DNA from: Brevibacillus composti
GTDB taxonomy: Bacteria; Bacillota; Bacilli; Brevibacillales; Brevibacillaceae
Direction: 5' to 3'
NCBI RefSeq assembly: GCF_016406105.1
Contig: NZ_CP066308.1
Coordinates: forward strand, 3,335,501 to 3,399,500
DNA length: 64,000 bases
Under the pieces are notes generated by a model. That model worked only from the letters and a program-made list of their open reading frames with translations. It ran no database searches and was not told the DNA's origin. A program made the position numbers and the translations under genes. How positions within the stretch are numbered: position 1 is the first letter of the stretch; every line of letters begins with the position of its first letter. Shown piece by piece: positions 13,798 through 21,416 of the stretch.

Positions 13798-14958
13798 TCA
13801 GGTGAACAGGAGAGCCAGCACGCCCTGCACCAGCCCGATAACGCCGCCCAGGATGAAGCCGAGGATCGTAATCATGCGAAACTCCCGTCCGGAAATGCCC
13901 ACGACCATCTCTTCGATCCGCTCGATCGGAAAGCTCTCCACTTGCCTGGTCACAATCTCGCGAATCGGCAGCTTTTCAAACAGCGCATCGATATTCGTCT
14001 CCAGCTTTTCCACCATCCACCTGGCGGCCTTCGGGATCAGCTCCGTGACAATCGTCTGGCGGAACGGAGCGAGCAGCTCGGACACCGGCTTGTCCGCCAA
14101 GCGCAGCGCTTCTTGCTCCAGCTTGGCGAAGATGGCCCTCGCCCAGGATTCCACCTGTTCGCTGCCCATCCATTCGACGACCTCACCGACAGTCTTGTGC
14201 AAGAGCTTGTCCGCCTCGCTGCTCAGCACTTGATGGATTTTCCCCGCAAGCGCCGGATTGCGCAGCAGCTCGTCGAGATGGGGCAGCAGCTTGCCGATGA
14301 TCTTGTCATCGCCGAGGAACATGCCCACCAGGCCGCCAAACATGCCGCCCCCGCCGCCGACCAGACCGCGAACCATCTGCTGCAGCGTCTCGACGCCTTC
14401 CTGTGAGCGCACGTACTCCCGCGCCTTCCCCAAAAAGAGACGGCTCACCTCAGCCATAGCCTCGTCAATCCGCTCCCGCCCGGAGGCAGGAAGCAGCTCC
14501 AGGAGAGGTCGGTCGCGGTACAAGTCGAGCTGTCCCGCCACCCACCGCTCCCATGCCTGCCGAAGCGGCTCGCGGATCTCCTCGCCCAATCGCTCCTCCC
14601 CCTCTTGAAAGAAAGAAGGCTTTACCACGGTCAGCCAGTGCCGGAGAGTGCGGCTGTCTGACAGCCACTCCTCCGCCGAGCGAGCCATCCATAGGGTCAA
14701 TTTTTGCTCCATCTCCCCGTGGGCAAGCGCCTTTTTTATCCCCTCGGTGGTCAAGAGGTGCTCCTCTACCAGACGGCCCATCTGGACAGCGATGTCATCT
14801 CTCCGCCTGGGGATCAAGCCTGGCGTAAAAGGCACTTGCCATCCGCCAATTCGCCATGGGCGATGAGGGCGGAAAAGCATTCGGATCGCCAGTTCATTGG
14901 TCACTCCGCCGATGACGGAGCCTACTGCAACGTTTACTGCCAACATCCAAAAATTCAT
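13798..14958 (-). CDS. yheB: DUF445 family membrane-anchored protein (YheB)
   Basis: 386 residues with a hydrophobic segment at each end (MNFWMLAVNVAVGSVIGGVT and ITILGFILGGVIGLVQGVLAL) and a long helical, mostly soluble middle, the DUF445/YheB architecture. The conserved N-terminal NELAIRMLFRPHRP and PFTPGLIPRRRDDIA motifs are present. In B. subtilis yheB adjoins yheC/yheD, and here it is divergent from an expanded YheC/D array, so the association is conserved. An upstream in-frame TTG (14970) is possible, but its SD would be directly adjacent; the ATG at 14956-14958 has GAGAGG 12 nt upstream. The function is unknown; a sporulation role is inferred from context. Confidence 0.9.
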   Translation of the reverse strand: MNFWMLAVNVAVGSVIGGVTNELAIRMLFRPHRPWRIGGWQVPFTPGLIPRRRDDIAVQMGRLVEEHLLTTEGIKKALAHGEMEQKLTLWMARSAEEWLSDSRTLRHWLTVVKPSFFQEGEERLGEEIREPLRQAWERWVAGQLDLYRDRPLLELLPASGRERIDEAMAEVSRLFLGKAREYVRSQEGVETLQQMVRGLVGGGGGMFGGLVGMFLGDDKIIGKLLPHLDELLRNPALAGKIHQVLSSEADKLLHKTVGEVVEWMGSEQVESWARAIFAKLEQEALRLADKPVSELLAPFRQTIVTELIPKAARWMVEKLETNIDALFEKLPIREIVTRQVESFPIERIEEMVVGISGREFRMITILGFILGGVIGLVQGVLALLFT

Positions 14959-14989
14959 TCTCTGTAACAACCTCTCTTTTCCTCATGGA

Positions 14990-15017
14990 ACCAAAGTATC
15001 TGCCTGCTCATAAAATA
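14990..15017 (+). promoter_or_regulatory. sigma-K-like promoter of the YheC/D array
   Basis: ACC (14990-14992), a 16-nt spacer and CATAAAATA (15009-15017). This matches the sigma-K pattern AC - N16/17 - CATANNNTA of late mother-cell genes. It lies 35 nt before the first array gene, in the space shared with yheB. Confidence 0.55.
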
Positions 15018-15051: not shown

Positions 15052-16467
15052 ATGTCGTATGCTCCCATTACTTTGCAATCGTACGAACCCAAAACCGACA
15101 TCGACCTGTACCTGCCCCAGGCGCACATGCGCAAATGGAATCTGACACCGACTACCCTCACCGTTCAATTTGGCGGAAAAACGGCGCGAGCCCACATTCA
15201 AGGAATCAAACAAGGCCGATACGCCCTGATCCGGCCGTCTATGGCCAAGGCCCTCCATCTGCCCAAGGGAGTTCCTCTGCTGGTACGTTATCAAGCGAGC
15301 CAGCAGCGTCTTGTTTTTGGACCCTATCTGGGCATTCTCGTTTCCACGTATCTTGCCCAATATCCGCTGTCTCCTTTTGGCGGATTCACCGCGTTCTTCA
15401 ACGAGGTGACCGACAGCTGCCGCAAACGGGGAGGCATCGTCTGCGTCTTCCGGATGGAGGATGTCGATTGGGATGCGGGGATCGTCAAAGGCCTGGTCCG
15501 ACGAAATGGAGCCTGGCAGCCAACCGTTTTGCCGCTCCCGCAATGCATCTACAACCGCATGGTCTCCCGTCAGCGAGAACGGAGTGAAGCCATGGCCGCC
15601 TGGAAAGAGCGGTGCAAGGAGGCCAACATCCCGTTCTTTAATGAACAGTTCCTGAATAAGTGGCATGTGCATTCCGCTTTGGAAAATGAACCGGAAGCCG
15701 CCAAACACCTGCCCCGCACGATCCGTTACCTGGGGAAAGCCGATTTGGAAACCATGCTTTCCTCCTACAAGACGATTTACGCCAAGCCCGCAAACGGCAG
15801 CATGGGCAGAGGGATTGCACGCATACGCCGAGCAAGCAGCGGCTATCAATTAAGTCTCGCAGGCGGCAGTTCCACGGTGTATGGAAGCCTCGGCGACCTG
15901 CACCGCCAGCTGTCGCGACGGACAAAAGGAAAAACCTATCTGCTGCAGCAAGGTCTCCCGCTGATCGGAATCAATCAGCGCCCGACCGACTTCCGCGTAC
16001 TGGTGCAAAAAGACCGGCAGGGGAAATGGGGGGTGACCTCCATGGTGGCCCGACTGGGGCAAAACCGGATCGTCTCCAACGTCTCCCGCGGCGGCTCCAT
16101 GACCTCGCCCGCTTCCGCTCTCCGGATGTGCGGCCCCTGGATGACCAACATTCGTCCGAGCGTCCAGACCCTTCGCAGCGTTGCCTTGAAGCTGGCGCAA
16201 TTGCTGGAGCAGTCGCTCTCTGGCCATTACGCGGAATTCGGCATCGATCTGGGAGTAGACGTCCACGGACAGGTATGGCTCCTCGAGGTAAACAGCAAGC
16301 CCTCGAAAACCACTAACAGCCTCCCTGGTCAGGGCGGGGACCCTGAAACTCCTCGCCGGGTTCGGCCCTCAGTCTTGCAGATGCTGGATTACGCTTCTTA
16401 TCTGAGCGGATTTCCCCGCTCGCCCAAGCAGACAGCAGGGACGCGCAAGAAACCAAGACGAAGGTGA
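15052..16467 (+). CDS. YheC/YheD family ATP-grasp protein, copy 1
   Basis: 471 residues. An N-terminal beta-rich domain (about 1-110, ending FGPYLGILVS) precedes an ATP-grasp domain. Nucleotide- and metal-site motifs are intact: KPANGSMGRGIARI (P-loop-like lid, near 250), DFRVLVQKD (near 315) and the terminal magnesium motif EFGIDLGVDVHGQVWLLEVN followed by SKP (near 410). ATP-grasp enzymes ligate a carboxylate to an amine through an acyl-phosphate; the substrate of YheC/D is unknown. B. subtilis YheC/YheD are coat-associated sporulation proteins. The ATG at 15052 (SD AAGGGG) is preferred to the in-frame ATG at 15028. The stop overlaps the leader of copy 2. The C-terminus carries a basic tail (RKKPRRR) that the other copies lack. 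Confidence 0.9.
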   Translation: MSYAPITLQSYEPKTDIDLYLPQAHMRKWNLTPTTLTVQFGGKTARAHIQGIKQGRYALIRPSMAKALHLPKGVPLLVRYQASQQRLVFGPYLGILVSTYLAQYPLSPFGGFTAFFNEVTDSCRKRGGIVCVFRMEDVDWDAGIVKGLVRRNGAWQPTVLPLPQCIYNRMVSRQRERSEAMAAWKERCKEANIPFFNEQFLNKWHVHSALENEPEAAKHLPRTIRYLGKADLETMLSSYKTIYAKPANGSMGRGIARIRRASSGYQLSLAGGSSTVYGSLGDLHRQLSRRTKGKTYLLQQGLPLIGINQRPTDFRVLVQKDRQGKWGVTSMVARLGQNRIVSNVSRGGSMTSPASALRMCGPWMTNIRPSVQTLRSVALKLAQLLEQSLSGHYAEFGIDLGVDVHGQVWLLEVNSKPSKTTNSLPGQGGDPETPRRVRPSVLQMLDYASYLSGFPRSPKQTAGTRKKPRRR

Positions 16468-16472
16468 CACTT

Positions 16473-17552
16473 ATGACGGCAAACCAAAAAAGCCTAGGCA
16501 TCATCACGATATGCCGCGGCTCTTCCTTTCTTGAAAAAGCGTATTACAAAAAGCTGACATTGATTGGTCGCAAAAGCGGCATCCGTGTCTTTGTCTTTTC
16601 TCCGCGTGAAGTCGACTTTGACACACGCACCGTAAATGGCTTTGAATTTCGGGACGGCGAATGGCAGAAGCGGAATTTTCCGTTGCCTGCCTACATCTAC
16701 GACCGCTGCTTCGTCGGCCCGTCCTATCGCCACTATAAACCATTTGTAGAGAAGTTGCAAAACGATCCGGCGATCACCTTCCTCGGCCATGGCCTGTCGG
16801 GAAAATGGCAGGTTCATCAAATGCTGGTCAAATCACCGCTGCTGAAAAAATGGCTGCCGCCCACTGATCTGTACTCCTTTTCATCGCTCCAGCGCACGCT
16901 TCAGGCGCACGGCTCTGCCGTGATCAAGCCGATTGCCGGGACACATGGCATCGGGGTCGTTCGGATCGACAAGTCACCCGAGGGATACCGCGTGTCCGGC
17001 CGCAATCGGGAAAATCAGCCGTTCGAGAAAGCCTGCCGGGGCCAAACCGGGCTCAAAGCTTTCTTGGCCGGGTTTGTCGGCAGCCGGTCTTTCCTGGTCC
17101 AGCCGTACCTCTCCCTGCACACGCGGGACGGCACTCCGTTCGATGTCCGCGTCCTGGTGCAGAAAAACGGAGATGGCCAATGGGAGACCACGGGAAGAGC
17201 CGTCCGCCTCGGCGATAAGCGGAGCATCACATCCAATCTGCATGGCGGCGGAAAGGCCGTCTCCCTGAGCAGCTTTCTGGCCAATCACTATCCCGCCAAG
17301 ACGAGAAGCAAGATCGAGCAGCAACTGGATCGCCTGGTGGCAGAACTGCCTCCTTTTTTGGAGAGTGAACACGGCCGACTCTTCGAGCTTGGCATCGACG
17401 TCGGCATCGATACAGAAGGCAATGTCTGGATTATTGAAGTGAACAGCAGGCCGGGGCGAACCGTATTCAAAATGATTGATGATCCCCAAGCGCGCATCCA
17501 CTCCATCACCCAACCGGTCCGCTACGCCCGCTATCTCATGAAACATGCGTAG
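16473..17552 (+). CDS. yheC: YheC/YheD family ATP-grasp protein, copy 2 (short, YheC-like)
   Basis: 359 residues, close to B. subtilis YheC (about 363). It lacks the N-terminal beta domain of the other three copies and starts directly with the preATP-grasp part (LGIITICRGSSFLEKAYYKK). Motifs: KPIAGTHGIGVVRI (near 150), DVRVLVQKNGDGQWETTGRA (near 225) and ELGIDVGIDTEGNVWIIEVN then SRPGR (near 320). ATG 16473 has SD GAAGGTGA, which is also the end of copy 1. The 5-nt gap and shared strand indicate one operon. Catalytic residues look intact; substrate unknown. Confidence 0.9.
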   Translation: MTANQKSLGIITICRGSSFLEKAYYKKLTLIGRKSGIRVFVFSPREVDFDTRTVNGFEFRDGEWQKRNFPLPAYIYDRCFVGPSYRHYKPFVEKLQNDPAITFLGHGLSGKWQVHQMLVKSPLLKKWLPPTDLYSFSSLQRTLQAHGSAVIKPIAGTHGIGVVRIDKSPEGYRVSGRNRENQPFEKACRGQTGLKAFLAGFVGSRSFLVQPYLSLHTRDGTPFDVRVLVQKNGDGQWETTGRAVRLGDKRSITSNLHGGGKAVSLSSFLANHYPAKTRSKIEQQLDRLVAELPPFLESEHGRLFELGIDVGIDTEGNVWIIEVNSRPGRTVFKMIDDPQARIHSITQPVRYARYLMKHA

Positions 17553-17566
17553 GAGGTCATACAAGC

Positions 17567-18940
17567 ATGGAATCGATCAGAGTGCGGCTCCGCTTCCTTT
17601 CCTATCCCCATGTAGCCGGAATTATCCTGCCATCCCTGCTCTGTCAAAAGCTGCAGCTTCGCCCGCGGCAAAAAATCCGCATTTCTCTGGGAAAACGGGA
17701 AGTGGTGGCCACGATCTTTCAAGACCGTCGTAATCCCGAAAGCAATGTCATCAAAGCAACAAGCATGCTGAAAACGGACTTGGGCATCCCGCACGGTGGT
17801 CTGATTCAGATAAAAAAAGAAGGAGAAACCCTGCGGATTGGTCCCGCAATTGGTATCGTCACAACCGGTCTCAAGCCGTCTCCCCGCCAGCCTATCGGTC
17901 AGCGCACATCATTCTTCTATAATCTGCTGCAGGCCCAGGAAGGAAAAGGCGTGTTTTATTACATTTTCGCGCCAGGCGACATCGATTGGGAGACCAATCG
18001 GGTCAGGGCCTGGTTCCTCAGACGATCCAAACAGGGAGAGTTCGTCTGGAAAAAGATGATCGCTCCTTTGCCCGACGTCGTCTACGACCGGATACCGTCC
18101 CGGACTGCGGAACGCCATGAAGCCGTCCAGGAGTTCAAAACGAAGCTGGCCAATTACAGCATGCCGATGTTTAACCAGGGTTTTTTCAATAAATGGGGCA
18201 TACATCAGCTCCTCTATCCCAATCCCGAGGTAAACGAATTTATCCCGGAAACGTACACCTCCCCGACCCTGCAAACCGTCCGTTCCCTCTTGCGCAAGTA
18301 CCCGATCGTCTATCTCAAGCCGAAAAACGGGAGTCTGGGCTACGGCATTCTGAAAATTGTCTCCCTGTCGCCTGGCGGCTATGAGCTCTCCTATCACAGT
18401 GGAAGCGGCAATGTAAAACGTCGCTTCTCCAAGCTGTCCGCCCTCTACCAGCATGTCTTTCGCACGCGCAGGCCGAGCGCCTATCTGGCGCAGCAAGGCA
18501 TCTCGCTATTGACCTTCCAGGGACGTCCTTTTGACTTCCGCGTCCACCTGCACAAAAATCTGCAAAACGAGTGGGTCGTCTCCTGCATGGCCGCCAAGGT
18601 AGCCGGTTCCGGAAGTGTGACCACTCACGTCAGAACGGGCGGAACCGTGATCCCCGGCGACGAGCTGTTGACGTACCTCTTCGGCAAGCAGAAGGCCCTG
18701 ATGAAGGAGCGCGTCTCCCAAGCCGCTATCCGGCTTGCCACCTCCATCGAGCAGGCCAAAGGCATGGACCTCGGCGAATTGGGGCTGGATATGGGCATCG
18801 ACAAACACGGGCATGTCTGGATGTTTGAAGCCAACTCCAAGCCTGGCCGTTCGATCTTCAAGCATGCCCGGCTGAAACAGGCGGATCTGGAATCCCGCAA
18901 CTTGCTGGTTGACTACAGCTGCTATCTGGCCAACTTTTAA
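17567..18940 (+). CDS. yheD: YheC/YheD family ATP-grasp protein, copy 3 (YheD-like)
   Basis: 457 residues, near the size of B. subtilis YheD (about 453). A beta-rich N-terminal domain (residues 1-105, ending RIGPAIGIVTTG) precedes the ATP-grasp domain with KPKNGSLGYGILKI (near 255), DFRVHLHKNLQNEWVVSCMA (near 330) and ELGLDMGIDKHGHVWMFEAN then SKPGR (near 415). In this copy the usual VQK of the second motif is LHK. SD GTAGGAGG lies 10 nt before the ATG, and copy 2 ends 14 nt upstream. Confidence 0.9.
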   Translation: MESIRVRLRFLSYPHVAGIILPSLLCQKLQLRPRQKIRISLGKREVVATIFQDRRNPESNVIKATSMLKTDLGIPHGGLIQIKKEGETLRIGPAIGIVTTGLKPSPRQPIGQRTSFFYNLLQAQEGKGVFYYIFAPGDIDWETNRVRAWFLRRSKQGEFVWKKMIAPLPDVVYDRIPSRTAERHEAVQEFKTKLANYSMPMFNQGFFNKWGIHQLLYPNPEVNEFIPETYTSPTLQTVRSLLRKYPIVYLKPKNGSLGYGILKIVSLSPGGYELSYHSGSGNVKRRFSKLSALYQHVFRTRRPSAYLAQQGISLLTFQGRPFDFRVHLHKNLQNEWVVSCMAAKVAGSGSVTTHVRTGGTVIPGDELLTYLFGKQKALMKERVSQAAIRLATSIEQAKGMDLGELGLDMGIDKHGHVWMFEANSKPGRSIFKHARLKQADLESRNLLVDYSCYLANF

Positions 18941-18977
18941 CAATCAACCGTACCACCGTAAGGAAGGAGGAACACCC

Positions 18978-20291
18978 ATGCCTCAATTGCGCTCCGGGTG
19001 GTTGACGATCCTCCCCGGCGGCCGTTGGTATTTGCAAGTTCCGCGTCAACATCTTCTCGCCCTGCGCGGGCGGAAAAAACTGCGGGCCAGTTTGGGACCG
19101 TTTCAAACAATCAAACGGGTGTCCCTCGGCCTTCCCAAACAACAGCCTGGCCGTATCCGTACCCGGATCAATTGGAAAGTGGGCAATGACACATTCAAGC
19201 TGGGACCGCTGATCGGAATCTTGACCGTGGGAAAGGGTCAGCATTTTTTGGGCAATCGGGAAAACTTTAAAGACATCGCGCTCACGGGAAAAAAACTGGG
19301 CGCTCTCGTCTACGTCTTTACCCCTGAAGGAATTGACTGGAGTAAAAAAACAGTGCGCGGCTACCTCTACGATGAACAGCAAGGGCTTTGGCTCGAAGAG
19401 ATGCTGCCTTTTCCACATGTGGTCTACAACCGGATTCCTTCGCGGAAAGCGGAAAAACGGACCGAAGTCCAGGAAACGCTGAGCCAATTTGACAGTCTGC
19501 AAAATGTCACGCTGTTTAACCGCTGTTTTTTTGACAAGCAGAAGCTGTTCCATACGTTGGGTGAATATGAGGAAGTGACGCCTTATCTGCCTGAAACGGC
19601 AAAGCTGGATTCGCTGTCACGCTTCCGCCAGTTTTGCCATCAGCATCGCTACGTCTACCTGAAGCCCGTGCTGGGCAAAGCAGGGGAAGGAATTATGCGC
19701 GTCGAGCAAAAGAAAAACGGCTGGGTCGTACATCGGCTCAAGGAACAGAAGGCCATTACCCGCCGGTTTGTTACGCTGGAAGGGGTATGGAAGCACGTGA
19801 AGGGGCATGCGGGAAGAAAACGCTACATCATGCAGCAGGGCATCGACCGCGCGAAGTACATGGGGAAACCCTTTGATGTCCGCGTGCTCGTGCAAAAAAA
19901 CGGAAAGGGGGAGTGGGGGGTGACCGGCATCGGCATCCGCAGGGCGGGCTCGCAAAGCATTACGACCCATGTGCCCCGCGGCGGCTCCATCCATTCACTC
20001 GGAACTGTCCTGCAAGCGATTTTTAAAGGGGAGGCGGAAGCGATTGAAGCGAGCATCAAAGAAACGGCGCTGACCATCGCGAGCGCTTTGAATCAGGCCA
20101 TAGCCGGACTTGCCGAAATGTCGATGGATCTCGGACTGACAAAGGAGGGGCGCCTCTGGCTGTTTGAGGCCAATGCCAAGCCGGAGAAATTCGACGAGCC
20201 TTCGATTCGCCGCATATCCCTGTCCAACATCATCCACTATTCGCAATACGTCTCCCGTCTCCAGAGCGGACGGGGAGCCGCCTCGGGGTAA
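18978..20291 (+). CDS. YheC/YheD family ATP-grasp protein, copy 4
   Basis: 437 residues. The N-terminal beta domain (about 1-80, ending KLGPLIGILTVG) precedes an ATP-grasp domain with KPVLGKAGEGIMRV (near 233), DVRVLVQKNGKGEWGVTGIG (near 300) and EMSMDLGLTKEGRLWLFEAN then AKPEK (near 390). The most diverged copy: the metal motif has EMSMDLG where the others have EFGIDLG or ELGxDxG, and the usual SKPGR is AKPEK. Key Glu and Asn are kept, so it is probably still a nucleotide-binding enzyme. SD AAGGAGG lies 8 nt before the ATG at 18978, which is preferred to an earlier in-frame ATG inside the copy 3 end. Confidence 0.9.
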   Translation: MPQLRSGWLTILPGGRWYLQVPRQHLLALRGRKKLRASLGPFQTIKRVSLGLPKQQPGRIRTRINWKVGNDTFKLGPLIGILTVGKGQHFLGNRENFKDIALTGKKLGALVYVFTPEGIDWSKKTVRGYLYDEQQGLWLEEMLPFPHVVYNRIPSRKAEKRTEVQETLSQFDSLQNVTLFNRCFFDKQKLFHTLGEYEEVTPYLPETAKLDSLSRFRQFCHQHRYVYLKPVLGKAGEGIMRVEQKKNGWVVHRLKEQKAITRRFVTLEGVWKHVKGHAGRKRYIMQQGIDRAKYMGKPFDVRVLVQKNGKGEWGVTGIGIRRAGSQSITTHVPRGGSIHSLGTVLQAIFKGEAEAIEASIKETALTIASALNQAIAGLAEMSMDLGLTKEGRLWLFEANAKPEKFDEPSIRRISLSNIIHYSQYVSRLQSGRGAASG

Positions 20292-20297
20292 CCGGCG

Positions 20298-20768
20298 ATG
20301 AAGCTGTTCACCGTTTTCCCCCATCTGCTCCCCTCGATCAAGGCGACCCTGCTCCGTTTTGTCAGAAGGGAAGGCGAACGGCGCATCACGGTCCAATCCA
20401 GAGACTGGCTGGGAGAGCTTTCCCCGGAATCGCTGAAAAGCCGGGACACCCGCCTGCTGCTCGCGGTAGAGGGAAAGCGTCTGGTCGGCCTGTTTGCCGT
20501 CTCGGACTGCGGTCTCGGCCACGCGTTTCTGGTCGTGGACAGAAGGTACCGGGGCCGCGGCGTGGGCAAGGCTTTGGCCGCCCGAATGTGCCGGCTTCTG
20601 CCCAAACTGTATGTCCGTGTCGCCATCGACAATGAACCTAGTCTGACGCTCTTTCGCAATCTCGGCTTCCAACCGGTAAAGGCAAGTATCGGTCCGACCG
20701 GCAAACCCACCCTCTGGTTTGCCTTTGGCCAGTGGACTCCGGAGGATTTGCACGTATCCGCGCCTTAG
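20298..20768 (+). CDS. GNAT family N-acetyltransferase
   Basis: 156 residues. The acetyl-CoA pyrophosphate-binding motif A is VDRRYRGRGVGKALAARM (about residues 79-96), preceded by the beta4 strand GHAFLVV and followed by the beta5 YVRVAIDNEPSLTLFRNLGF. It starts 6 nt after copy 4 of the YheC/D array and ends at a terminator, so it is the last gene of that operon. An acyl transfer onto the same product as the ATP-grasp enzymes is a reasonable guess, but no substrate can be read. Confidence 0.88.
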   Translation: MKLFTVFPHLLPSIKATLLRFVRREGERRITVQSRDWLGELSPESLKSRDTRLLLAVEGKRLVGLFAVSDCGLGHAFLVVDRRYRGRGVGKALAARMCRLLPKLYVRVAIDNEPSLTLFRNLGFQPVKASIGPTGKPTLWFAFGQWTPEDLHVSAP

Positions 20769-20770
20769 CG

Positions 20771-20819
20771 GGTCTTCCAGGCACGCCATCTCGGCGGCAT
20801 CGCTTGGGGGACCTTTTTT
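20771..20819 (+). terminator. terminator of the YheC/D operon
   Basis: GGTCTTCCA pairs with TGGGGGACC (two G-T pairs) around a 25-nt loop and is followed by six T, directly after the GNAT stop codon. Confidence 0.7.
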
Positions 20820-20857
20820 CTATCCGCCGGCCTAACCAAGCTGATGGTCGACGGCCC

Positions 20858-20889
20858 GCTGGACTGCTGGACTGCTGGACTCCCGGACT
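20858..20889. repeat. 8-bp tandem repeat, four units
   Basis: GCTGGACT occurs three times in tandem and a fourth degenerate unit CCCGGACT follows. It lies in the 70-nt space between the YheC/D terminator and the end of a convergent gene, so unit changes would not hit coding sequence. Confidence 0.7.
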
Positions 20890-21416
20890 CACGATGAAGA
20901 GACGGCCTGAACCGCCTCGTACAACTCGTGCAGGGAGGCGAGACTTTTTTCATCTACAGTGAATAAAATTTCACCAAAGCGGTACTGATCTCGTTCCGCT
21001 CCCAGCCATGTCCGCCGCTCCTCGTCCCACTGGGCACGGACGCATTCCTCCGTTTGGTCCAAATGATGGCGGACCGTCACATGGGTCTGAAGCTCGCAGC
21101 CAAAACGCTGCATGATCCGGGCATAGCGCTCGTCTTCCCGGGCCAGACGGTACAGGGCCATTTCGATCTGCAGCCAGCAGGTGACGTAGAAGTGAAACTC
21201 CAAAAACAAGGTATGCAGCGCCCGCGCGATCTCCCGCCGGCTCTCTTCATCCGATGAGCCGCCCGCTTGAGCAAGCGCTTGTCGGACATCCGCTTTTTTC
21301 AGTTGAATCAGGTCGTAGTGGCTGACGGCCCCCCGGTAAAATTTCCGCACGATGCTCCGCAGCATCTCCGGCGTGCGCGGCGCAAGTCCGCGGTATCGAT
21401 TCGGTACATCCCGCAT
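20889..21416 (-). CDS. hypothetical helical protein
   Basis: 175 residues, predicted mostly alpha-helical, with no signal peptide or membrane segment. It starts MRDVPNRYRGLAPRTPEML, a region rich in Arg, and has Glu/Arg/Leu-rich helices (ALHTLFLEFHFYVTCWLQIE). No domain was recognised. The SD is weak (GAGAG). It lies between the YheC/D operon (convergent) and the peroxiredoxin operon, whose terminator is at 21483-21516. Confidence 0.6.
   Translation of the reverse strand: MRDVPNRYRGLAPRTPEMLRSIVRKFYRGAVSHYDLIQLKKADVRQALAQAGGSSDEESRREIARALHTLFLEFHFYVTCWLQIEMALYRLAREDERYARIMQRFGCELQTHVTVRHHLDQTEECVRAQWDEERRTWLGAERDQYRFGEILFTVDEKSLASLHELYEAVQAVSSS

Follow-up and report, generated by a model that had tools for sequence, protein, structure and literature searches.

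An operon of four YheC/YheD-type ATP-grasp ligases and a GNAT acetyltransferase with a probable link to the spore coat in Brevibacillus composti

Operon layout and enzyme families

In the window, i.e., the whole 64,000-nucleotide stretch of DNA analysed here, a tight operon was confirmed at 15052-20768. It comprises four YheC/D-type ATP-grasp genes, designated c1 to c4, and a GNAT gene, all on the plus strand. The c1 gene (15052..16467) encodes a YheD-type ligase of 471 aa with an N-terminal domain, c2 (16473..17552) a YheC-type ligase of 359 aa without this domain, and c3 (17567..18940) and c4 (18978..20291) YheD-type ligases of 457 and 437 aa, respectively. The GNAT acetyltransferase (20298..20768) has 156 aa. 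All five genes start with ATG, and the intergenic gaps are 5, 14, 37, and 6 nt. The first-pass annotation had described four ATP-grasp paralogues and a GNAT gene in one operon, and the lengths, gaps, and matches to PF14398 and PF00583 agree with it. The copy that it reported to lack the N-terminal domain is c2, whose N-terminus aligns at about residue 79 of c4.

A yheB-type gene (DUF445; 13798..14970, minus strand; PF04286, E 7.1e-59) is the divergent neighbour outside the operon, and it was placed identically in 26/26 loci of the genus, the window counted. Downstream of the GNAT gene, the terminator that had been annotated was recovered as an intrinsic terminator (20770..20819, plus strand), i.e., an outer stem of 13 pairs and then a T run. 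The fold at 20766-20822 had an energy of -26.2 kcal/mol (z -4.4), which was equalled by 0/200 shuffles. This terminator was found by RNA folding and was not picked up by a simple pattern scan.

In profile search, c1-c4 matched PF14398 with E values of 1.7e-73 to 2.8e-83 (247-280 bits, cut-off 26.8), and the GNAT matched PF00583 (E 6.9e-9; 36.4 bits, cut-off 20.7). The cut-off of PF03133, TTL, was also exceeded by c1 (24.3 vs 20.1 bits), and that of PF14397, sugar-transfer-associated ATP-grasp, by c2 (36.1 vs 31.4 bits); the PF14397 matches of c1, c3, and c4 were below the cut-off. The RimK family TIGR00768 (rimK_fam, cut-off 143.4) was reached neither by c1 (19.9 bits) nor by c2 (15.5 bits), and c3 and c4 had no match. 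By their sequences, c1-c4 are not filed in the RimK family, though they may work like RimK. The GNAT was below the cut-off of the RimI family TIGR01575 (23.4 vs 86.4 bits). A defence system was also considered and rejected, the PADLOC matches being marginal only, for c4, with E 0.0046 or worse. In the whole assembly, 11 PF14398 matches were found, and around the seven YheC/D genes outside the operon, where ORF starts were assigned by eye, no neighbour gave a clear hint of a substrate.

Seven residues, i.e., Lys, Lys, Asp, Arg, Asp, Glu, and Asn, which we take to be catalytic or metal-binding from the ATP-grasp superfamily, were all present in c1-c4 of the window. They were kept in 226 sequences with four exceptions, i.e., 3/63 c2 at Glu and 1/53 c1 at Asn. 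The metal motif of c4 had been considered diverged, but it is intact, with D384, E397, and N399 in the window copy and equivalents in 56/56 c4 sequences. These intact residues rule out decayed active sites. Clade-fixed differences, e.g., Ser-Asn in c1/c2 and Thr-His in c3/c4, were found in a loop that is placed beside the acceptor site; this comparison set aside 15 loci, of which seven (L063-L069) come from the window's genome and carry a single gene and eight are of the cotE type, and it counted 8 additional c2-like genes separately.

The c3 model (pLDDT 94), searched against the PDB with residues 91-457 in the matched rows, was closest to RimK (Z 22.0), followed by LysX/ArgX (20.5), glutathione synthetase (20.2), and TTLL6 (19.0). 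D-Ala-D-Ala ligases and the graspetide ligase PsnB were also close in fold. The N-terminal domain had no significant PDB match, and its only other match, to CDC48_N, was at E 0.16. The top fold scores of the GNAT model (pLDDT 94) were protein N-terminal acetyltransferases, i.e., NatC (15.7) and RimI (15.6).

Age and conservation of the array

The paralogues c1-c4 share 28-34% identity. A phylogeny, which had been proposed as a check, placed the array members of each copy in a conserved clade of their own, and the four Bacilli-wide clades c1-c4 had SH-aLRT values of 98, 99, 98, and 93 in quick tree searches with SH-aLRT support only and several long branches flagged. Each clade also contains non-Bacilli members with the same gene order. 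Rows from cotE-type and single-gene loci, labelled by best profile, fell partly outside the four clades, and each of the two trees required 8 label changes where 3 would be the minimum. Recent tandem duplication is ruled out by the low identity and the four old clades. The first-pass annotation would have given up its reading for recent duplicates with decayed sites; the copies found are old and their residues intact.

Outside the genus, the order c1-c2-c3-c4-GNAT was found in 27/50 loci. These were picked among the highest-scoring PF14398 matches, with each family code contributing one or a few, and therefore rates over them are not unbiased. The conservation of the array outside the genus rules out a genus-specific expansion. 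The four copies, read earlier as an expansion relative to B. subtilis, are not unusual, and the four-copy state looks ancestral.

Whether the GNAT gene is conserved with the array has a divided answer. Where it was found it sits with the array: in a GNAT-based scan of named genomes, with patterns built from array-linked GNATs, it followed c4 in 48/48 loci. It is absent, though, from 11/38 c1-c4 arrays outside the genus and from 11/26 genomes of the genus, 9 of which keep recognisable remnants. The GNAT is dispensable and was lost in these 11 genus genomes.

Promoter and association with sporulation and coat genes

Upstream of c1, a motif scan found a sigma-K-type promoter (14988..15017, plus strand) with GAACC at -35 and CATAAAATA at -10, and a gap of 17 nt from AC to CATA. 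The pattern searched for, i.e., AC at -35 and CATANNNTA at -10 with the right spacing, whose letters we presume to be those of the sigma-K consensus, is present in the window and in 52/63 other loci. A strict match was found upstream of c1 in 53/64 loci, compared with 3/745 control starts, which include non-gene frames, and 1.8% of shuffles. The 64 regions had a c1 score >280 (or belonged to the genus) and enough upstream sequence, and 35 came from one family. By family code, at least one match was found in 13/17, with f8, f12, f33, and f39 missing. In locus L088, the match lies 9 nt inside the estimated start. Sigma-E promoters showed no clear excess (at most two mismatches in 38% of upstream regions vs 27% of shuffles), and sigma-70-type promoters were ruled out, being as frequent as in shuffles.

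YheC/D co-occurs with SpoIVA. Among 121 Bacilli, 87 had both, 24 had neither, and 3 and 7 had a single one (Fisher p 5e-16). Judged from the upstream motif, the operon is probably turned on late in spore formation. The block sizes and gap of the promoter agree with those given in passages of PMC517825, in which the B. subtilis yheC and yheD genes are described as mother-cell sporulation genes that depend on sigma-E and are raised by SpoIIID. According to parts of PMC7911427, YheD surrounds the spore as a shell and is a coat-associated protein with function unknown on record; the two-hybrid screen described there gives a strong self-interaction of YheD only and none with coat morphogenetic proteins.

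In other genomes, YheC/D genes share a neighbourhood with cotE and with PF14395, a second ligase. This grouping was found in 8/50 loci outside the genus (Bacilli) and 9/13 non-Bacilli loci, the latter picked as strong clusters, and the order cotE-c1-PF14395-c2-c3-c4-GNAT was found in four loci. In the window's genome, cotE is about 1.34 Mb from the array, beside the PF14395 gene, and the 25 other loci fetched from the genus all lack cotE.

CotE tails are acidic, with at least 10 Asp/Glu within the last 25 residues in 16/21, compared with 0/216 background ORFs, which include non-gene frames. An excerpt of PMC11980541 reports that, in B. cereus, assembly of the meshwork is under the control of the acidic CotE tail. 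That an acidic tail marks the array is not supported: 20 genomes with PF14395 and the array (in G110 the array was not read, and G147 has no c3) did not differ from 14 without PF14395 (p 0.38), with six genomes, L224-L229, excluded from the test (1, 3, 11, 11, 6, and 10 acidic residues). Eight genomes with PF14398 and no PF14395 comprised three with c1-c4 and no GNAT (L090, L091, and L094), two reduced (L096 and L097), and three unread. Acidic tails are equally common without the array or PF14395, and therefore such a tail is not specific to the system.

Proposed function and comparison with known systems

It is slightly favoured that the operon is a late mother-cell, i.e., sigma-K, operon whose enzymes attach amino acids to acidic proteins of the spore coat, with the CotE tail as lead acceptor. 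The products of the four genes would be RimK/LysX/TTL-type ATP-grasp ligases without mutual redundancy. Each would form an acyl phosphate from a carboxylate and couple this to an amine, and amino acids would thereby be added to a coat protein. All four are very probably active amide ligases. A role in the coat has good support, and it is probable that they act on coat material. That each ligase adds a different residue is tentative. So is the role of the GNAT, which would acetylate the amine of the product, e.g., as chain capping. As lead acceptor we propose the C-terminal tail of CotE, which is acidic; cotE is genetically linked to the ligases and PF14395 in other genomes. This acceptor is rather doubtful and has one negative test against it. 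The first-pass annotation had suggested an undescribed pathway of ligases and an acyltransferase. The amide-ligase type and coat link are upheld by cotE synteny, the sigma-K-type promoter, SpoIVA co-occurrence, and the RimK/LysX-like model, but "undescribed" is not supported for the coat link, as a coat prediction at the family level reportedly exists.

The best-surviving alternative is a free small molecule or peptide, i.e., a spore metabolite, built with one amino acid per ligase, tailored by the GNAT, and deposited in or around the spore. Four non-redundant ligases with an acyltransferase resemble an assembly line, and the fold closeness to D-Ala-D-Ala ligases and PsnB points the same way. 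However, this is unlikely, because what recurs with the ligases in other genomes is CotE, a structural protein of the coat, and no exporter or tailoring enzyme was common to the arrays among the best 25 neighbour clusters of 33 loci. An intergenic scan of the same number of loci found no graspetide precursor gene beside the array; the median gap between array genes was -4 nt, and no short intergenic ORF family was shared by more than 6/33 loci. That no precursor peptide had been seen at first thus holds in and beside the operon, although a precursor gene may lie at a distance. The terms YheC, YheD, and spore were absent from the graspetide survey PMC8939145.

Somewhat less likely still, the ligases would cross-link coat proteins, or couple a coat protein to a cell-wall peptide or polysaccharide, rather than add single amino acids. 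PF14395, found with cotE, is named COOH-NH2 ligase, and c2 exceeds the PF14397 cut-off, with the other three matching below it, but the enzymes nearest in fold attach single amino acids, either to a protein or to a small acceptor. A mainly structural role, in which YheC/D proteins are coat components polymerising around the spore and catalysis is vestigial, would fit the shell and strong self-interaction of YheD (parts of PMC7911427) but is improbable, because it would not require catalytic residues at or near 100% in four groups (226 sequences).

Returning to amino-acid addition on coat proteins, a bolder and unlikely version can be formulated. The acidic CotE tail would be extended by four dedicated RimK-like ligases and the COOH-NH2 ligase and acetyl-capped, tuning coat meshwork assembly; this would have been set up before Bacilli diverged, and lineages that lost the COOH-NH2 ligase would carry encoded Glu at the very end of CotE instead. 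If true, it would be a bacterial counterpart of tubulin-tail polyglutamylation. Literature searches found no paper on enzymatic activity of any YheC/D protein and none combining "polyglutamylation", "spore coat", and "Bacillus". Through the CotE link, an enzyme family that has long gone unexplained acquires a specific, testable target. YheD, so far an unknown coat protein, would become part of an enzyme pathway that can be tested and has a named substrate candidate and, if true, an enzymatic modification would act on the spore-coat morphogenetic protein CotE.

B. subtilis has two genes, yheC and yheD, and no GNAT is known to accompany them. The Bacillus-type locus L096 has the order yheB-c2-c3, and from this order and the lengths of the proteins, YheC presumably corresponds to c2 and YheD to c3. 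The two genes suggest that B. subtilis is a reduced model of this coat layer. The B. subtilis pair shares the PF14398 family and a mother-cell sporulation role with the window operon (passages of PMC517825), and differs in being under sigma-E with SpoIIID, whereas the window operon has a sigma-K-type promoter.

RimK is the best fold match of c3, and TTLL polyglutamylases are represented by TTLL6 in the fold search and by the PF03133 match of c1. RimK builds poly-alpha-glutamate on ribosomal protein S6 and, like the TTLL enzymes, acts on an acidic C-terminal tail. Identity to the RimK rows of the fold search is only 15-17%, and c1-c4 are far under the rimK_fam cut-off. Unlike RimK and TTLL, c1, c3, and c4 have an extra N-terminal domain, and four paralogues stand in a row. 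LysX/ArgX, also close to the c3 model in fold, extend a carrier protein by an amino acid at its C-terminal Glu. A neighbourhood of YheC/D, CotE, and COOH-NH2 ligase, with a predicted role in coat or wall modification, was reportedly described by Iyer et al. 2009 and also in a Pfam note. The three families and the coat or wall role are shared with that prediction. Beyond it would be the definition of four orthologous ligases and their fixed order, a fifth gene for the GNAT, the sigma-K-type promoter, and the proposal of the CotE tail as acceptor.

Operon structure and distinctness of the four ligase copies

The operon (15052-20768) consists of four YheC/D-type ATP-grasp genes, designated c1 to c4 in window order, and an acetyltransferase gene (GNAT), all in the same direction and each started with ATG. 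The products were 471, 359, 457, 437, and 156 aa, and the intergenic gaps were 5, 14, 37, and 6 nt, respectively. By Pfam profiles, c1-c4 were assigned to PF14398 and GNAT to PF00583; c1 and c2 additionally passed PF03133 (TTL) and PF14397, respectively. The 3' end is a hairpin followed by a T run. The divergent neighbor is a DUF445 gene of yheB type, and behind it lies a gene for an SpxR-like regulator (411 bits, below the model cut-off of 600). A convergent ORF without Pfam match (20889-21416, minus strand, 175 aa) was kept in 26/26 genus loci.

The pairwise identity among c1-c4 was 28-34%. In all 26 genus genomes, counting that of the window, the four genes were found in order, and the best match of each was its own counterpart (63-89%). 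In a Bacilli tree of 97 proteins, the array members split into c1, c2, c3, and c4 clades (SH-aLRT 98, 99, 98, and 93); rows partly outside the clades were single genes and those of cotE-type loci, i.e., YheC/D genes together with cotE and PF14395 (COOH-NH2 ligase), labelled by best profile. The four groups persisted in a 93-protein tree with non-Bacilli loci added. There, YheC/D genes 1-4 of four loci (L180, L181, L184, and L187) grouped with c1-c4, respectively, as sisters of the Bacilli members, so the four-gene order is older than the lineage split or was transferred as a single block. Judged by these comparisons, c1-c4 are ancient and mutually distinct copies. Two Bacillus-type loci were reduced, i.e., yheB-c2-c3 (L096) and c1-c3-c4 (L097), which suggests that the B. 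subtilis pair may be remnants.

The ATP-grasp catalytic and metal residues, as matched in c3 numbering, were K209, K251, D323, R325, D408, E421, and N423. All seven were present in each of c1-c4; the metal motif of c4, described as diverged in the first-pass annotation, therefore has its full residue set, and that description was wrong. Among 226 aligned sequences, only four exceptions were found (E421 in 60/63 c2, N423 in 52/53 c1, others complete). One loop was clade-specific, with Ser-Asn in c1 and c2 and Thr-His in c3 and c4, and more clade-fixed positions were found besides. By analogy with RimK, this loop would be placed on the acceptor side of the ligase, and its differences may reflect different specificities.

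Other YheC/D-type genes were also observed. The whole assembly had 11 PF14398 matches, four of them in the operon. Three single members elsewhere in this genome (L063, L064, and L066) belong to a further YheC-like clade, which adjoins the array after GNAT in L070, L083, L085, L098, L105, and L106 of several families (L105 and L106 by profile only). Split genes, each of two ORFs, were c4 in L075, c2 in L090, and c1 in L108, as frameshifts or sequencing errors. The non-Bacilli locus L175 had eleven YheC/D-type ORFs within about 17 kb, with low scores against all four profiles.

Linkage and loss of the acetyltransferase

The window GNAT was 61-76% identical to the GNATs of ten Brevibacillus records. 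GNAT was present in 15/26 genus genomes, and broken remnants followed c4 in nine of the 11 others. Outside the genus, c1-c4 stood in order in 38 of 50 loci, and GNAT then followed in 27/38; three ordered arrays had one gene split in two, two of them among the 27. The remaining 12 loci were two with GNAT but without c3, eight of cotE type, and two reduced.

A GNAT-alignment scan of named genomes gave 48 loci, and GNAT followed c4 in all of them. The full order was kept in 45; the other three were two Aneurinibacillus loci without c3 and one cut contig. The genera were Brevibacillus, Ammoniphilus, Aneurinibacillus, Thermoactinomyces, Laceyella, Shimazuella and similar genera, Paenibacillus, Caldalkalibacillus, and Vulcanibacillus. 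Strong GNAT matches (E 5e-27 or better; next-best 1e-6) were detected in 41/121 Bacilli genomes. Of these, 36 were inspected in the window or in fetched loci, always with GNAT after c4; in the remaining five, a PF14398 match stood on the same contig, no more than about 1.4 kb away. GNAT is part of the system, yet it can be lost. The five-gene set is a real, old, and widespread system and not a local oddity.

Spore linkage and predicted promoter

Among the 121 Bacilli genomes, PF14398 and SpoIVA were both present in 87 and both absent in 24, with PF14398 alone in three and SpoIVA alone in seven. CotE was found in 94. PF14395 was found in 77, including all 41 strong-GNAT genomes, and SpoIVA and PF14398 were present in all 77. 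The distance from cotE to PF14395, from domain start to domain start, was within 3 kb in 54 and 3-8 kb in 22, and one draft had them on different contigs. In the window's genome, cotE and then the PF14395 gene (L188, G000 C1:2007306-2009270) lie about 1.34 Mb from the array, and the other 25 loci fetched from the genus contained neither. The cotE-type locus L100 has the order miaB-like, ymcA-like, cotE, three YheC/D genes, PF14395 ligase, and mutS-like, where all names except those of cotE and the ligase were given by eye. In 13 non-Bacilli loci, picked as strong clusters with Pfam checks on some, cotE and PF14395 occurred together in nine, and two of the other four had PF14395 without cotE. 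The order cotE-c1-PF14395-c2-c3-c4-GNAT was found in four of the 13 (two family codes). YheD is known to form a shell round the spore (PMC7911427). Together with the linkage to spore genes and cotE, this gives good support to a coat role, and the system likely acts in the spore coat.

SpoVR-like genes were seen near the array in 7/33 representative loci (L072, L077, L078, L084, L085, L087, and L095; Pfam check on L078), and a small acid-soluble spore protein-like ORF, by eye, near five Bacillus-type loci.

An AC-N17-CATANNNTA element ends 34 nt 5' of c1, inside the 81-nt space after yheB. Its letters fit the sigma-K promoter consensus. Strict matches were found in 53/64 upstream regions, versus 3/745 control starts and 1.8% of shuffles; the AC-CATA spacing was 17 in all matches listed, and 13/17 family codes carry the element. 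Its block sizes and gap match those given in PMC517825. The element is a predicted promoter of sigma-K form. Within 300 nt upstream of cotE, it was found in five of 12 cotE genes checked, and that of the window's genome had none.

Predicted chemistry, candidate acceptor, and known systems

The c3 model (41 sequences, pLDDT 94) was closest in fold to RimK (Z 22.0, rmsd 3.3, 275 aligned), followed by LysX/ArgX (Z 20.5), glutathione synthetase (20.2), and TTLL6 (19.0), where rows at most 1 unit apart are tied. These enzymes join amino acids to small acceptors or to the tails of proteins. Amide-ligase-type chemistry is likely for c1-c4. The closest folds to the GNAT model (pLDDT 94), among the matches listed, were NatC (Z 15.7) and RimI (15.6); all 50 listed matches fell within 1.8 units, so fold scores do not settle its substrate class.

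At least 10 Asp/Glu in the last 25 residues were counted in 16/21 CotE (20 from loci with YheC/D genes and one from the window's genome), versus 0/216 background ORFs. The five CotE below 10 were one in L177, one in L179, both in L178, and that of L183. In B. cereus, the tail of CotE carries 15 negative residues and keeps the meshwork from forming until Ca2+ is added (PMC11980541). From these tails and the ligase-type folds, the acidic C-terminal tail of CotE is proposed as a candidate amino-acid acceptor of the ligases. However, acidic residues averaged 12.0 where PF14395 and an array were both present (20 genomes), 13.4 where PF14398 was present and PF14395 absent (eight), and 8.5 where both were absent (six). 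The tails were no more acidic in the first group than in the other two (p 0.38), and tails equally acidic without PF14395 count against CotE as acceptor. In the L190-L217 set, 13 of these 20 genomes encoded a CotE ending in DDLD or DELD, and all eight of the PF14398-only group encoded one ending in two Glu (EEE, PEE, or DEE). Because the eight may be one lineage, this difference in the very end is a lead only. Five genomes of family code f3 (L221-L225) had Ser-rich, acid-poor CotE tails and few or no PF14398 genes.

A literature search covering few subscription papers found nothing on YheC/D protein activity or on spore-coat polyglutamylation. We found no description of four clades in a fixed order, of their association with GNAT, of a conserved promoter of sigma-K type, of non-Bacilli arrays that begin with cotE and include GNAT, or of the CotE-tail hypothesis. 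Iyer and colleagues (2009), and also the Pfam text on PF14395, reportedly noted the association of YheC/D, CotE, and COOH-NH2 ligase, with modification of the coat or wall as the predicted role. The system is a variant of this already predicted kind. The yheC and yheD genes of B. subtilis depend on sigma-E, with stimulation by SpoIIID (PMC517825), whereas the array here has a sigma-K-type promoter sequence, so the timing appears to differ.
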